The translations under genes were made by a program, and so were the position numbers. Shown one piece after another: positions 40,962 to 46,242 of a DNA stretch of 64,000 nt. Each line of letters opens with the position of its first letter. Position 1 is the stretch's first letter. Source of the stretch: Pseudothermotoga sp. (lineage in GTDB: Bacteria > Thermotogota > Thermotogae > Thermotogales > DSM-5069); assembly GCA_025060105.1 (NCBI GenBank), contig JANXCS010000009.1:1-64000 (forward strand), written 5' to 3'. Under the pieces are notes generated by a model that was given only the letters and a program-made list of their open reading frames with translations, was not told the DNA's origin and ran no database searches.

Positions 40962-40990
40962 TTGAATGTTCACATGCCGTGTGCTAAAAT
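40962..40990 (+). promoter_or_regulatory. Promoter of the glpA-like operon
   Basis: TTGAAT (40962-40967), 17 bases, TAAAAT (40985-40990), with an extended TGC just before the -10 box. Predicted transcription start is about 40997, exactly at the GGTGTGG element. Confidence 0.8.
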
Positions 40991-40996
40991 AAAATT

Positions 40997-41053
40997 GGTG
41001 TGGTAGAGAATTGGAGAAAGCCACATCCCTCATGGGGTGTGGCTTTTTCTTTT
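40997..41053 (+). promoter_or_regulatory. Transcription attenuator leader (terminator/antiterminator) of the glpA-like operon
   Basis: The terminator has left arm 41017-41029 (AAAGCCACATCCC), loop TCAT, right arm 41034-41046 (GGGGTGTGGCTTT) and a U-tract to 41053. The right arm contains GGTGTGG, and the same heptamer occurs at 40997-41003, the predicted 5' end of the message. That copy can pair with CCACATC (41021-41027), which destroys the terminator. The 17-base intervening loop is purine-rich (TAGAGAATTGGAGAAAG). The matching leader before glpK and the nearby glpP gene point to GlpP-mediated antitermination with glycerol-3-phosphate as signal (inference from the known Bacillus system). Confidence 0.85.
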
Positions 41054-41065
41054 GGAGGGATGGAT

Positions 41066-42505
41066 TTGAAAATCGCAGTGATCGGAGCCGGAGTGGTTGG
41101 TTCACTGATCGCTCGAGAACTGTGTAAGTACGATGCAGAAGTGTTACTCATAGAGAAAAATATGGATGTTGGCTGGGGTGTGACGAAAGCGAACTCCGCC
41201 ATTCTCCACGCTGGATATGACGATCCAGTCGGTAGTGTGAGATCGAAATTCTGTAGCCTTGGTAATGCGATGTACACAGAGCTCGCCAAAGAGTTGGATT
41301 TCGAGATCAAAAGGACCGGTTCATACGTTCTTGCCTTCAACGACGAGGAAATCAGTGTGCTTCACAAGCTTTTGAAACAGGGTGAAGTCAACAAAGTTCC
41401 CGGTCTCGAACTTCACGATCGTGATGAGATTCTCTCGAGGGAACCGAGGGTCAATCCAAAAGTGAAGATGGGACTTTGGGCACCAACAGCTGGTATAACG
41501 GAACCATGGATGATTGCAATCGCCGCCGTGGAAAACGCACTCGAGAATGGGTTGAAGCTGTTTTTGAATGAAGAAGTCATCGGTTTTGAAAAGTCCAACG
41601 GCAAGATCAAAAAGATCATCACCAATAAGCAGGAGCATTCTGTAGACATAGTCATAAACGTGGCTGGTTTGTTCGCCGATGAAATTTCGAAGTTGGCTGG
41701 CGCAGAATATGTGCCACTACATCCAAGGAAAGGTCAATACATTCTACTCGATAAGAAACTCGGTAAAATCGTCAATTCAGTCATCTTTCCAACCCCGACG
41801 GAAAAATCCAAAGGTATCTTGGTGTTACCAACGATAGATGGTGGTCTACTTCTAGGACCAACAGCCGAAGACTTGCCGAGTGATAGGAAACACGATTTAA
41901 CCACGACGAGTGAAGGGTTACAGCAGATCAAAGACTTTGTCCTCAAGCTCGTTCCAGATATAGACTTTTCCCTAGTCGTTAAGACCTTCGCCGGCCTGAG
42001 GCCAGAAAGTCCACAGAAAGATTTCTTCATCTCAGCCAGTCGAACCGTTCAAAATTTCATCAATGTCATGGCGATGAGATCACCAGGTCTCACGGCAGCT
42101 CCAGCGATAGCAAAGTACGTGGTCGAAGATCTCATACAAGATCAACTGAAACTAACGCTGAAAAGAAAAAGAAATTTCAAGTCGAAGAGAGAGGCTATAA
42201 AGAAGTACACGCAACTCAGTCTCGAAGAATGGCAAGAAGTGGTTGCGAGAAAACCGTCTGCGGGAAGAATGGTTTGCTTCTGTAACGAGGTGACCGAGGC
42301 CGAGATAGTTGAAGCCATCAGCAGAGGTGCTAGAACTCTAGACGGTGTGAAGTTCAGAACACGCGCCATGTTTGGGCGTTGCCAGGGTGGTTTCTGTATG
42401 AGCAAAATTTTAAAGATCCTTGAACGTGAACTTGGAACGGACGCTTCGAACATCACCCTCAAATCACCTGGCAGCTGGATCGTCGATGGGAAGGTGAGAG
42501 AATGA
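41066..42505 (+). CDS. glpA: FAD-dependent glycerol-3-phosphate dehydrogenase, GlpA type with BFD-like Fe-S domain
   Basis: About 479 residues. A DAO-type FAD fold (KIAVIGAGVVGSLIARELCK) is followed by the body of the dehydrogenase (TKANSAILHAGYDDPVGS, AGITEPWMIAIAAVE). The C-terminal domain from about residue 395 has the cysteines of a BFD-type [2Fe-2S] site: MVCFCNEVTEAEIVEA, then GRCQGGFC. It oxidises glycerol-3-phosphate to dihydroxyacetone phosphate. TTG 41066 is preferred because GGAGGG (41054-41059) is six bases upstream; ATG 41060 abuts that site. It overlaps the next gene by four bases. Confidence 0.88.
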   Translation: MKIAVIGAGVVGSLIARELCKYDAEVLLIEKNMDVGWGVTKANSAILHAGYDDPVGSVRSKFCSLGNAMYTELAKELDFEIKRTGSYVLAFNDEEISVLHKLLKQGEVNKVPGLELHDRDEILSREPRVNPKVKMGLWAPTAGITEPWMIAIAAVENALENGLKLFLNEEVIGFEKSNGKIKKIITNKQEHSVDIVINVAGLFADEISKLAGAEYVPLHPRKGQYILLDKKLGKIVNSVIFPTPTEKSKGILVLPTIDGGLLLGPTAEDLPSDRKHDLTTTSEGLQQIKDFVLKLVPDIDFSLVVKTFAGLRPESPQKDFFISASRTVQNFINVMAMRSPGLTAAPAIAKYVVEDLIQDQLKLTLKRKRNFKSKREAIKKYTQLSLEEWQEVVARKPSAGRMVCFCNEVTEAEIVEAISRGARTLDGVKFRTRAMFGRCQGGFCMSKILKILERELGTDASNITLKSPGSWIVDGKVRE

Positions 42506-43719
42506 AAACCGATGTACTCGTGATAGGTGCGGGAGCCGCTGGCATGGGTGCTGCGATCGCTGCAGCAAAGAGGGGATTGAACGTTGTCATCGCCGAGCGT
42601 GACGAGATCACTGGTGGTATTCTCAATCAATGCATTCACAACGGCTTTGGCCTTCATTATTTCAGAGAGGAACTCACGGGACCAGAATACGCAGAACGTT
42701 TTCGCGAACAACTCGAAAAACTCAGTGACCGAATCAAAGTGTTCACAGACTGTCACGTGCTGAAATTGGGTGAAGATAGAAAAGCCTTGCTCGTCTCACC
42801 GAAAGGCATTTTAGAACTTGAAGCAAAAGCTGTTGTGTACACATCTGGAGCACGTGAAAGACCATTCGGTTCACTCATGATTCCTGGAGACAGGCCCTCT
42901 GGCATCTTCACGGCGGGCGTCGCACAACGTCTCATGAACATAGACAACAGAAAAGTGGGACACAGGGCTTTGATCGTTGGATCCGGTGACATTGGGATGA
43001 TCATGGCACGAAGGTTGACCTTGGAAGGAACCGAAGTGGTGGCGGTCGTGGAGAGGTTGCCCTATCCGGGAGGGCTTTTGAGAAACGTTATACAATGCTT
43101 GAAAGATTTCAACATACCGCTGTACCTTTCAAGTACAGTTATAGAAGTCAAAGGAAGGGAGAGACTCGAAGAAGTTGTGATCGCGAACGTGGATGAGCAA
43201 TTTAAACCCATCCCAGGTACTGAACGGAGCTTCAAGGTGGACACACTGATCCTTTCGGTGGGGTTGATACCACAAGTGGAGATGCTCGATGGTCTAGTTC
43301 AAACGGATAGAAGAACCAAAGGTGTGGCATGTTCAAACATTGGTCAGTCCTCCAGAGAATGGATATTCGCAGCTGGCAACTGCACGGCCATTTTTGATCT
43401 GGTCGATTACGTTACGAAAGAAGGCGAGCGTGCCGGCGAGTATGCCTCACGTTACGCCATGGGAGAACGCTTTTCACAGAACGTTCCGATCTCACCAGGT
43501 GAGAACGTCATGCTGACCTTTCCCAATTTCTACAACGCTGTCGATGATCTCACACTTTATGTCAGATGCAAAAAACCTATGGAAAAAGCCATGTTGAAAG
43601 TTGGTAACTTTGAAAAAATCTTTGAAGATCTGATACCCAGTGAGATGATCGTGGCCAAAATCCCGAATCAAAAGCTCTCTGGCTTGGACCGAATCGTCGT
43701 CGAACTGAAGGAGGTGTGA
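42502..43719 (+). CDS. FAD/NAD(P)-binding oxidoreductase partner of the GlpA-like enzyme
   Basis: 405 residues. Two dinucleotide folds: TDVLVIGAGAAGMGAAIAAA at the N-terminus (FAD) and HRALIVGSGDIGMIMARRL at about residue 155 (NAD(P)H). ILNQCIHNGFG and EWIFAAGNCTAIFDLVDYV are conserved-looking. The architecture is that of a thioredoxin-reductase-like flavoprotein, replacing GlpB of enteric GlpABC. It probably accepts electrons from the GlpA-like protein. Its start overlaps the preceding stop (ATGA). Confidence 0.85.
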   Translation: MKTDVLVIGAGAAGMGAAIAAAKRGLNVVIAERDEITGGILNQCIHNGFGLHYFREELTGPEYAERFREQLEKLSDRIKVFTDCHVLKLGEDRKALLVSPKGILELEAKAVVYTSGARERPFGSLMIPGDRPSGIFTAGVAQRLMNIDNRKVGHRALIVGSGDIGMIMARRLTLEGTEVVAVVERLPYPGGLLRNVIQCLKDFNIPLYLSSTVIEVKGRERLEEVVIANVDEQFKPIPGTERSFKVDTLILSVGLIPQVEMLDGLVQTDRRTKGVACSNIGQSSREWIFAAGNCTAIFDLVDYVTKEGERAGEYASRYAMGERFSQNVPISPGENVMLTFPNFYNAVDDLTLYVRCKKPMEKAMLKVGNFEKIFEDLIPSEMIVAKIPNQKLSGLDRIVVELKEV

Positions 43720-43721
43720 AA

Positions 43722-44090
43722 ATGGAAAAGATCGTGTGCGTCCTTTGTCCGATGGGCTGTAAGATAAAGTACAATGCAGTCGATGGAAAGATAATCTCGC
43801 TCGAAGGTAATCGTTGCCCCAGGGGAGTTTCTTATCTCGAGGATGAGTTGAGGGAGCCAAAAAGGATCGTTCCAACGAGCGTTAGAGTCATTAACGGTGA
43901 GATGCCCTTGGTTTCTGTGAAAACATCCAAGCCCATACCGCGCAGACTCATCTCGCAGTTTATGCAGACGGTGAAGAACGTTAAAGTAGAAGCTCCGGTC
44001 AGAGTCGGCGATGTGATAATCAAGAACGTTTTGGAAACCGGTGCAGATGTGATCGCCACCAGGACTGTGAAGAGGGTTAACTCAGCTTAA
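43722..44090 (+). CDS. DUF1667 protein, possible small redox subunit
   Basis: 122 residues. The N-terminus VCVLCPMGCKIKY plus a later RCPRG gives four cysteines in a CxxCxxxC...C pattern suited to an Fe-S cluster, as in molybdopterin-enzyme N-termini. DUF1667 proteins are regularly found behind GlpA-like dehydrogenases, so it is probably the third subunit of the complex. The start is ATG 43722 with AGGAGGTG upstream; GTG 43716 is inside that site. Its 3' end overlaps the convergent glpP gene by nine bases. Confidence 0.85.
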   Translation: MEKIVCVLCPMGCKIKYNAVDGKIISLEGNRCPRGVSYLEDELREPKRIVPTSVRVINGEMPLVSVKTSKPIPRRLISQFMQTVKNVKVEAPVRVGDVIIKNVLETGADVIATRTVKRVNSA

Positions 44091-44654
44091 TCTCAAATTC
44101 CACAGACTTTCCTCACTCGTTGAAACGGCCACCGCTCCCTTCTTCAGTGCTTCCATCACGTGAGCGACAGTCTTGATCAACCCACCAGTGATCACCGGTA
44201 TACTCGTTTCCTTGCTGATCTGCTCGATCAAGTCTGGTATCAAACCCGGAAGCACCTCTATGTAGTCCGGACGATGCGTCTTGATCTGCGCTATGCCCGT
44301 GAGGAGTGATTGCGAATCGAGAAGAAAGATCCTTTGTATAGGTACCAAACCTATCTTTTTGGCCACATCCACCAAATTTCCCTTCGTCGTTATGATGCCA
44401 TCCGCCATGACTTCAGCTTTCAAATATTCAACTGCACTCTCATCTTTACCGAGTCCCTTCACCAAGTCTAGGTGCACGAACACACTCTTTCCACATTCAT
44501 GAAGATATTCAACCAAGCGTTTCAGATCGAGCAGATCTCCGTACAGTAAAAACACCGAGGTAGCCAGACTTTCCGCTGCGCATCGCAACTTTTCCTCGTT
44601 CCTGATCGCTGGAACTACTGGATGGGCGAAATATCTACTACCACTGTTTTTCAT
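44082..44654 (-). CDS. glpP: Glycerol-3-phosphate-responsive antiterminator
   Basis: 190 residues, normal GlpP length. A TIM-barrel-like protein: [18 protein letters not shown] at the N-terminus, [48 protein letters not shown], and the phosphate-site [11 protein letters not shown] near the C-terminus. In Bacillus, GlpP bound to glycerol-3-phosphate acts on leader RNA of glp operons to prevent termination. Here two matching leaders lie at 40997-41053 and 46171-46225. ATG 44654 overlaps the glpK stop (ATGA), so regulator and kinase are made together, giving positive feedback. Confidence 0.92.
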
Positions 44655-46144
44655 GCCTCTAACCACCTTCTCGATCTTTCAACGGCCTTTTTCCAACCTT
44701 TGTAGAGTCTTTGCCTTTTTTCCTCGTCCATATTTGGAACGAATTTTCTATCCAGCTGCCACTGAGATTCTATCTGATCCAAACTGTCCCAATATCCGAC
44801 GGCCAAACCTGCCAGGTACGCTGCACCCAACGCGGTCGTCTCGTTGATCTTCGGTCTTTCGACAGGCACGTTCAGTATGTCAGCTTGAAATTGCATCAAA
44901 AAATTGTTCTTCGAGGCGCCACCATCTACACGGAGGGATTTCAACTGTTTTTGGCACTCTTTACACATCACCTCTATCACATCCCTGGTTTGATAAGCGA
45001 TGGACTCGAGCACAGCCCTCACGATGTGTTCCTTCCTTGATCCACGAGTTAAACCAAGGATCGCGCCCCGAGCGTACATATCCCAATAAGGAGCCCCAAG
45101 CCCAACGAAAGCAGGAACGATGTAGACACCCGCTGAGTCTGGAACACTGAACGCAATCTGTTCCGTTTCTGCAGCATTTTCGATCATTCTGAGCTCATCT
45201 CTCAACCATTGTATAGCCGCACCCGCGATGAAAACACTTCCCTCCAAAGCGTACGAGACTGCATCATTCAGCTTCCAAGCGATGGTGGTGAGCAGGCCAG
45301 ATTCAGATGGTACCGGTTTTTCACCAACATTCATGAGTATGAAACAACCTGTGCCATAGGTGTTTTTGACCATGCCAGGGTGTACACACATCTGTCCAAA
45401 CAGAGCAGCTTGCTGATCTCCGACATCCGCAGATATGGCTATTTCAACCCCGAAAATATCTTTTTCGGTGTATCCGTACACGAAGCTTGAGGGCAACACT
45501 TCAGGTAAAACCGAGCGAGGCACGCCGAAGATTTCCAAAAGTTCCTCGTCCCACGTGAGTGTGTTTATGTTGAACAGCATCGTTCTGGATGCGTTCGACA
45601 CGTCCGTTGCATGCACTCTTCCACCCGTGAGGTTCCAGATGAGCCAGCTATCGACTGTACCGAAAGCGATCTCGCCTTTCTTCGCTTTCTCAAAAACACC
45701 AGGCACATTTTGAAGGATCCATTGAAGCTTCGTTGCGGAGAAGTATGCATCCACGACTAGTCCCGTTTTACTCTTTATCGTGCTCTCAAGACCCCTCACT
45801 TTGAGTTGATCACAGAGCTCTGCAGTCCTTCTGCACTGCCAAACTATGGCGTTGTAAACCGGTTTCCCTGTTCTCTTATCCCACACGATCGTGGTTTCTC
45901 TCTGATTCGTGATGCCTATGGCGGCGATCTGGTTCGGTTCAATGTTCGTCATACGCAACAGTTTTCTTGCAACACTCAGTTGAGATTCGAGTATATCGTA
46001 TGGATCGTGTTCGACCCATCCGGGTTTAGGATAGATCTGGGCGAATTCTTGGTTCACCATACCAACCACGTCACCGTTTGAATCGAAGAGTATCGCACGC
46101 GAACTCGTTGTGCCTTGATCGAGCGCCAAAATGTAGCGTTGCAT
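44651..46144 (-). CDS. glpK: Glycerol kinase
   Basis: 497 residues, standard length. The FGGY kinase motifs are clear: [18 protein letters not shown] at the N-terminus, [22 protein letters not shown], the signature-like [19 protein letters not shown] and [12 protein letters not shown]. It phosphorylates glycerol to glycerol-3-phosphate, the substrate of the GlpA-like enzyme and effector of GlpP. It is preceded by a leader terminator (46171-46203) and followed, overlapping, by glpP. No glycerol facilitator gene (glpF) is in view. Confidence 0.96.
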
Positions 46145-46170
46145 CGTCTACACACCCCCATCGATAAATC

Positions 46171-46225
46171 AAAAAAGACCACACCCCAAAGGGGCATGGT
46201 CTTCTCTCCTCTTCTCCGCCACACC
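46171..46225 (-). promoter_or_regulatory. Transcription attenuator leader of glpK-glpP
   Basis: Minus strand, 5' to 3': GGTGTGG (46225-46219), a purine-rich stretch (CGGAGAAGAGGAGAGAAGA), then a terminator with left arm AAGACCATGCCCC (46203-46191), loop TTT, right arm GGGGTGTGGTCTT (46187-46175) and a run of six T. The 5' GGTGTGG can pair with CCATGCC (46199-46193), displacing the identical heptamer of the right arm. The layout is the same as in the leader at 40997-41053. Confidence 0.85.
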
Positions 46226-46231
46226 GTTTTT

Positions 46232-46242
46232 ATTTTATAACA
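46232..46242 (-). promoter_or_regulatory. Extended -10 promoter of glpK-glpP
   Basis: Minus strand TGT-TATAAAAT (46242-46232). No good -35 is seen; the extended -10 should compensate. Predicted start about 46227, so the message would begin one or two bases before GGTGTGG. It lies between the stop of the upstream methyltransferase gene and the leader. Confidence 0.6.

Follow-up and report, generated by a model that had tools for sequence, protein, structure and literature searches.

Two glp operons converge in the window, a stretch of 64,000 nucleotides of Pseudothermotoga sp. DNA (contig JANXCS010000009.1, positions 1 to 64,000). The plus-strand operon opens with glpD (41060–42505), which encodes an FAD-dependent glycerol-3-phosphate oxidase/dehydrogenase with a DAO domain (PF01266) and a BFD-type [2Fe-2S] domain (PF04324), and which scores 301.8 bits against NF033460, under the cut-off of 460. 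It is followed by an NAD/FAD oxidoreductase gene (42502–43719; PF07992) and, as the final gene, by one for a DUF1667 protein (43716–44090; PF07892). The minus strand carries glpK (44651–46144), which encodes glycerol kinase (PF00370, PF02782), and glpP (44082–44666), which encodes a glycerol-3-phosphate responsive antiterminator that matches PF04309 at 218.5 bits and PDB 3kts at 1.2e-38, the latter over an alignment of 176 residues. The two genes overlap by 16 nt at the end of glpK and lie in the same operon. The ends of glpP and the DUF1667 gene overlap by 9 bp tail to tail (44082–44090), and no terminator was found between these convergent ends, though joint induction is expected.

Each operon is preceded by a short leader. 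On the plus strand, the glpD promoter (40962–40990), found in the sequence and by promoter scan, has the −35 element TTGAAT at 40962–40967, a 17-nt spacer and the extended −10 element TGCTAAAAT, read as TG-C-TAAAAT with TAAAAT at 40985–40990. The 5′ arm GGTGTGG (40997–41003) lies at the predicted transcript start, and sequence, folding and covariation mark it as the antiterminator strand. Next comes a purine box, TAGAGAATTGGAGA (41004–41017), which fits RGAG-N5-GAGA and is the presumed GlpP recognition element. The intrinsic terminator identified by folding (41018–41053) has the left arm AAGCCACATCCC, the loop TCAT, the right arm GGGGTGTGGCTT and a U-tract; in detail, AAG is followed by CCACATCCC (41021–41029), TCAT, GGGGTGTGG (41034–41042) and the U-tract, which ends at 41053. 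The ribosome-binding site GGAGGG begins at 41054 and the glpD ATG at 41060.

The glpK leader, on the minus strand, has its parts in the same order from 46225 to 46171. Sequence and folding place its 5′ arm GGTGTGG at 46219–46225, the purine box CGGAGAAGAGGAGA follows at 46205–46218, and the folded terminator (46171–46204) is made up of GAAGA, the left arm CCATGCCCC (46199–46191), TTT, the right arm GGGGTGTGG (46187–46179) and a U-tract to 46171. Its extended −10 element, TGTTATAAAAT (46232–46242), was recognized in the sequence and missed by the promoter scan. The extended −10 promoters that the initial annotation saw as shared are present in both leaders, but the glpK leader has no strong −35 element.

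Folding and conserved parts of the leaders

Both leaders of the initial annotation were confirmed at the positions it gave, and chance is a poor explanation for them: the composite leader pattern occurs twice in the window, compared to 0.02 occurrences expected from shuffles. The terminators fold at −29.4 kcal/mol in the glpD leader and −24.8 kcal/mol in the glpK leader (z −5.2 and −4.4 against shuffles), and the terminator fold extends to 17 bp once A-U pairs with the U-tract are included. In both leaders the 5′ arm can pair alternatively with the terminator left arm, and the 5′ hairpins folded alone reach −9.5 kcal/mol (glpD) and −8.0 kcal/mol (glpK). In a simple scan of the window, which scored six terminators, no other terminator had an upstream arm pairing with at least 6 bp of its left arm. 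At 75–80 °C the computed energy of the 5′ hairpin is about 0 kcal/mol, while the terminator is much stronger. This suggests that the leaders are off by default and that a stabilizing protein is needed to open them. Matches to the simple pattern with three mismatches elsewhere in the same genome (L003–L008) lacked the box-plus-terminator layout and were set aside as chance.

The purine box is the core of the leader. RGAG-N(3–8)-GAGA, the spacer being mostly 5 nt, is present in 77 of 82 leaders compared to 2% of shuffled segments, and four of the remaining five have GAG-N-GAGA with a different base ahead of GAG. The box directly abuts the terminator left arm, and when the terminator is formed the last A residues of the box are paired to the U-tract. 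Pairing in the terminator itself reaches 98.7%, and 10 of its 11 pairs show compensatory changes.

Pairing in the 5′ stem is strongest next to the loop. Counted from the loop outward, pairs 7, 6, 5 and 4 are formed in about 96, 98, 90 and 88% of rows, and the outermost pair in 39%. The 5′ arm and the left arm change together as GTGG/CCAC, ATGG/CCAT and AAGG/CCTT, the last being a double switch in L132, L144 and L168, and pair 4 is GC in 41 cases and AU in 30. Clade membership partly confounds these covariation counts; when clades are weighted equally, own pairing exceeds cross-clade pairing at pair 4 (85% vs 66%) and only slightly at pair 5 (89% vs 82%). In the window's own family (f1), 30 of 32 leaders have a stem of at least 4 bp; the counts for other families are 21/21 (f9), 13/14 (f10), 4/5 (f11), 5/7 (f2), 4/10 (f8) and 2/8 (f3), and for Bacillota leaders 8/24. 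The full 7-bp stem of the GGTGTGG type is largely confined to f1 (23/32). The GGTGTGG heptamer is peculiar to the window's family, and conservation reaches further in the purine box.

Family f3 is Thermotoga proper: one of its GlpP paralogues is identical to PDB 1vkf, a T. maritima protein, over 166 residues. At L283 (5122–5670, genome G090), 1vkf corresponds to a divergent second GlpP paralogue and not to the leader-adjacent one. The Thermotoga leaders (L156–L158, L283) keep the box and the terminator beside glpP and lack the 5′ arm, because the −10 element is close enough to place the expected transcript start at the box. The same is seen at L135 in the window's own genome, where the box is kept, the arm is absent and the −10 element puts the predicted start at the box itself. 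The pairing of a 5′ arm with the left arm, on which the competition proposed in the initial annotation rests, is therefore kept in the window's family and most others, but not everywhere, and the loss of the arm that it had named as counting against its model does occur in some relatives that keep both glpP and the box. Since the arm was lost and the box kept in these leaders, the box appears essential and the arm common but dispensable. The 5′-terminal position of the arm, as in the glpD leader, is likewise not general, because in several leaders of transporter and hydrolase genes the promoter lies at a greater distance upstream.

Distribution and gene content

Among 103 Thermotogota genomes, 79 carry glpP, scored as PF04309 above its cut-off. 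Sixteen f1 leaders went into a covariance model (R1), and matches confined to its positions 21–57 were discarded as generic terminators or reverse-strand mirror images. R1 finds full-length leaders in families f1–f5 and f8–f11, that is, in nearly all glpP-carrying Thermotogota families. A broader model (R2, E 1e-4), slightly weakened by a few mirror fragments still in its alignment, finds a leader in 71 of the 79 genomes with glpP compared to 3 of the 24 without it (Fisher p about 1.6e-12). Two of those three matches are terminator-like at about 32 bits; only the third is convincing, and it comes from a 71%-complete assembly. The covariation search proposed in the initial annotation thus recovered the leader phylum-wide, with covariation in both the 5′ stem and the terminator. 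Co-occurrence with glpP and covariation between the 5′ arm and the left arm together support its assignment of the leaders to GlpP-type attenuators.

At E 1e-4, R2 finds no leader in 8 of the 79 glpP-carrying genomes, which belong to family f7 and to some Thermosipho relatives; at least two of them have weaker matches. In three f7 genomes with glpP (G005, G006 and G007) neither R1 nor R2 finds a leader. The f7 genomes may use a diverged box or other targets.

The initial annotation treated the two leaders as the whole regulon; the R1 search shows four in this genome. The third (L135) precedes an ABC transporter operon of the UgpB type (NF008211, 249 bits, under the equivalog cut-off of 411), and the fourth (L163) precedes a gene for a secreted-looking alpha/beta hydrolase of 601 aa. 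The regulon of this genome therefore comprises at least the glpD operon, glpK-glpP, the UgpB-type transporter and the secreted hydrolase. All 82 inspected leaders precede glpD, glpK, UgpB-like operons, the hydrolase, a PHO4 permease (once) or an Fe-dependent alcohol dehydrogenase (once). The two single cases are a lone leader with the box variant GTGA upstream of the PHO4 phosphate permease gene (L130, 2501–2575) and a lone leader upstream of the alcohol dehydrogenase gene (L170, 301–356), and both genes are possible lineage-specific regulon members.

Secreted-looking alpha/beta hydrolases of about 600–690 aa have either their own leader or a place between a leader and glpK-glpP (L163, 301–2172; L095, L096, L132 and L144). 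The latter arrangement is that of the sister genera at L095 and L096, and it suggests that the enzyme releases glycerol from esters. The hydrolase is thus a candidate thermophilic lipase/esterase feeding glycerol catabolism.

The initial annotation also placed glpP inside one of the two operons, and this is borne out by the glpK operon and recurs in other Thermotogota. By coordinates, glpP lies within a leader-controlled operon in f1 (with glpK) and in f2 and f10 (as the last gene of the glpD operon). In f3 and some of f8 it precedes the leader, and in f9 it is divergent.

An alignment query yielded 79 loci and plasmid records two more, a query with a single GlpP having found none. Outside Thermotogota, leaders at these loci have the box, and frequently a closing stem with it, in Thermoanaerobacter, Tepidanaerobacter, Caloramator, Oceanobacillus, Virgibacillus, Bacillus sp. 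V3-13, Hydrogenispora and one Atribacterota genome. Examples are GTATGG-TGGAGATTTGGAGAA-CCATAT in Thermoanaerobacter and TTTGG-ACGGAGAATTGGAGAAA-CCACAAA in Virgibacillus, and the covariation between the 5′ arm and the left arm extends across phyla. These leaders stand beside glpP, and the genes after the box, where identified, are glpD or glpK, the latter also with a first gene at the glpF position ahead of it. Cytobacillus has a looser box before glpF and glpD (AGAG-ATTA-AGAGA and TAGAG-ACCAC-GAGAGACC).

Proposed mechanism and alternatives

The two leaders are very probably GlpP-dependent transcription attenuators, in which the box and its short closing stem are held by GlpP with glycerol-3-phosphate. 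Comparison of sequences directly yields the terminator, the covarying stem that competes with it, the conserved box, the gene content and the co-occurrence with glpP. It is the competing stem that makes the terminator likely to be conditional, and homology that points to GlpP binding and to an effect of glycerol-3-phosphate. When glycerol-3-phosphate is absent, the nascent RNA would form the terminator and transcription would end ahead of glpD or glpK-glpP. Once GlpK has produced glycerol-3-phosphate, ligand-loaded GlpP would bind the RGAG-N5-GAGA box as the RNA leaves the polymerase, and would hold the box together with the closing stem, formed by the 5′ arm and the first 4–7 nt of the terminator left arm. 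The left arm would then be unavailable to the right arm, allowing transcription of the operon. Because glpP is part of the glpK operon, induction would feed back positively. In leaders that lack the arm, the bound box itself would have to hinder the left arm.

The strongest alternative, though less probable, is that GlpP binds the box alone and either blocks the terminator sterically or keeps GAGAAA off the U-tract, the 5′ arm only tuning or presenting the box. The near universality of the box and the missing 5′ stem in the Thermotoga leaders and L135 fit this well. However, most families, with nearly every f1, f9 and f10 leader, retain a stem of at least 4 bp that shows compensatory changes, as do some Bacillota and Atribacterota; this speaks for a role of the stem where it occurs. 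Conversely, since the stem is absent or very short in Thermotoga and weak in f8 and many Bacillota, helix exchange is not the whole mechanism everywhere.

It is very unlikely that the leaders work independently of GlpP, either as ligand-binding riboswitches or as sensors of another signal. They are short and conserved and show alternative pairing, as such elements would, but they co-occur tightly with glpP, their Bacillota counterparts stand in GlpP-controlled gene settings, and the conserved part is a purine loop of 14 nt, small for a known aptamer. Moreover, no Rfam covariance model, be it for riboswitches, T-boxes or protein leaders, matches at its gathering score in the window or at 15 leader loci. 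No RAT or two-hairpin ANTAR architecture was seen in the leaders, and a T-box or RAT leader was also rejected. Least credible of all is that these are ordinary terminators of upstream genes and that their repeat merely reflects similar promoters or DNA-binding sites: both leaders do lie close behind an upstream gene, whose end the glpK promoter overlaps, but the elements lie after a promoter and just before a ribosome-binding site, on the glp coding strand and phylum-wide, and genomes without glpP lack the full element, apart from the one convincing R2 match.

GlpP-dependent attenuation of this kind is best read, from the sequences, as a phylum-wide extension of the known Bacillus GlpP mechanism that is absent from Rfam. 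On balance, we favor a broader reading, in which GlpP would recognize one uncatalogued protein-binding RNA element, GG-N-RGAG-N5-GAGA-R-CC, in Thermotogota, Bacillota and Atribacterota alike; the element is a purine loop whose closing stem is the start of the terminator. Lineages would have moved between helix-exchange switching with an extended arm, as in Pseudothermotoga, and leaders that start at the box and need a protein block alone, as in Thermotoga, sometimes within one genome.

Relation to known systems

It has been established that B. subtilis GlpP acts by antitermination, binds the leader and stabilizes mRNA, as summarized in PMC9604022, PMC7430163 and PMC3997798 and in works cited there. 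The glpD, glpFK and glpTQ leaders of B. subtilis and their relation to GlpP were described by Holmberg and Rutberg (1991, 1992), Glatz et al. (1996, 1998) and Darbon et al. (2002), as cited in PMC9604022 and PMC3997798. For T. maritima, GlpP was the only RNA-binding sugar regulator listed in 2013, and its regulon was not studied there (PMC3750489); the main text of the T. maritima transcript map makes no mention of glycerol or GlpP (PMC3636130). Within the searchable literature, neither the Thermotogota leader nor the cross-phylum box is described, and part of the box may stand in the early Bacillus papers (1991–2002).

The leaders probably supply the RNA side so far missing for T. maritima GlpP, and the likely recognition site is narrowed to about 14 nt. 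The covariance model finds GlpP regulons phylum-wide and into Bacillota, with predicted new members in the UgpB-type transporter and in the secreted hydrolase found in one operon with glpK-glpP. In addition, natural variants with and without the exchanging arm bear on whether the protein or an RNA helix antiterminates at 70–80 °C.

The window's leaders share with the B. subtilis GlpP leaders a promoter, a short leader, an intrinsic terminator, glp genes and a GlpP of the same Pfam family. The RGAG-Nx-GAGA box ahead of the terminator left arm is shared with the Bacillaceae leaders compared, namely those of Cytobacillus, Oceanobacillus, Virgibacillus and Bacillus sp. V3-13. In contrast to B. subtilis, the closing stem reaches 7 bp in the Pseudothermotoga family, glpD is of a different type (DAO plus BFD domain, with two partner genes), glpP lies within the glpK operon, no glpF was found beside the glp genes in the window, and the regulon takes in a UgpB-type transporter and a secreted hydrolase. 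By analogy, the leaders resemble the purine/NAG-repeat leaders of HutP and TRAP, which also combine a metabolite-activated protein with short purine-rich repeats and a terminator; the proteins are unrelated, however, and here two GAG-type motifs share one small loop whose closing stem overlaps the terminator. With the BglG/LicT (RAT) and ANTAR systems they would share a protein that stabilizes an antiterminator hairpin overlapping the terminator, although the protein families and RNA motifs are different.
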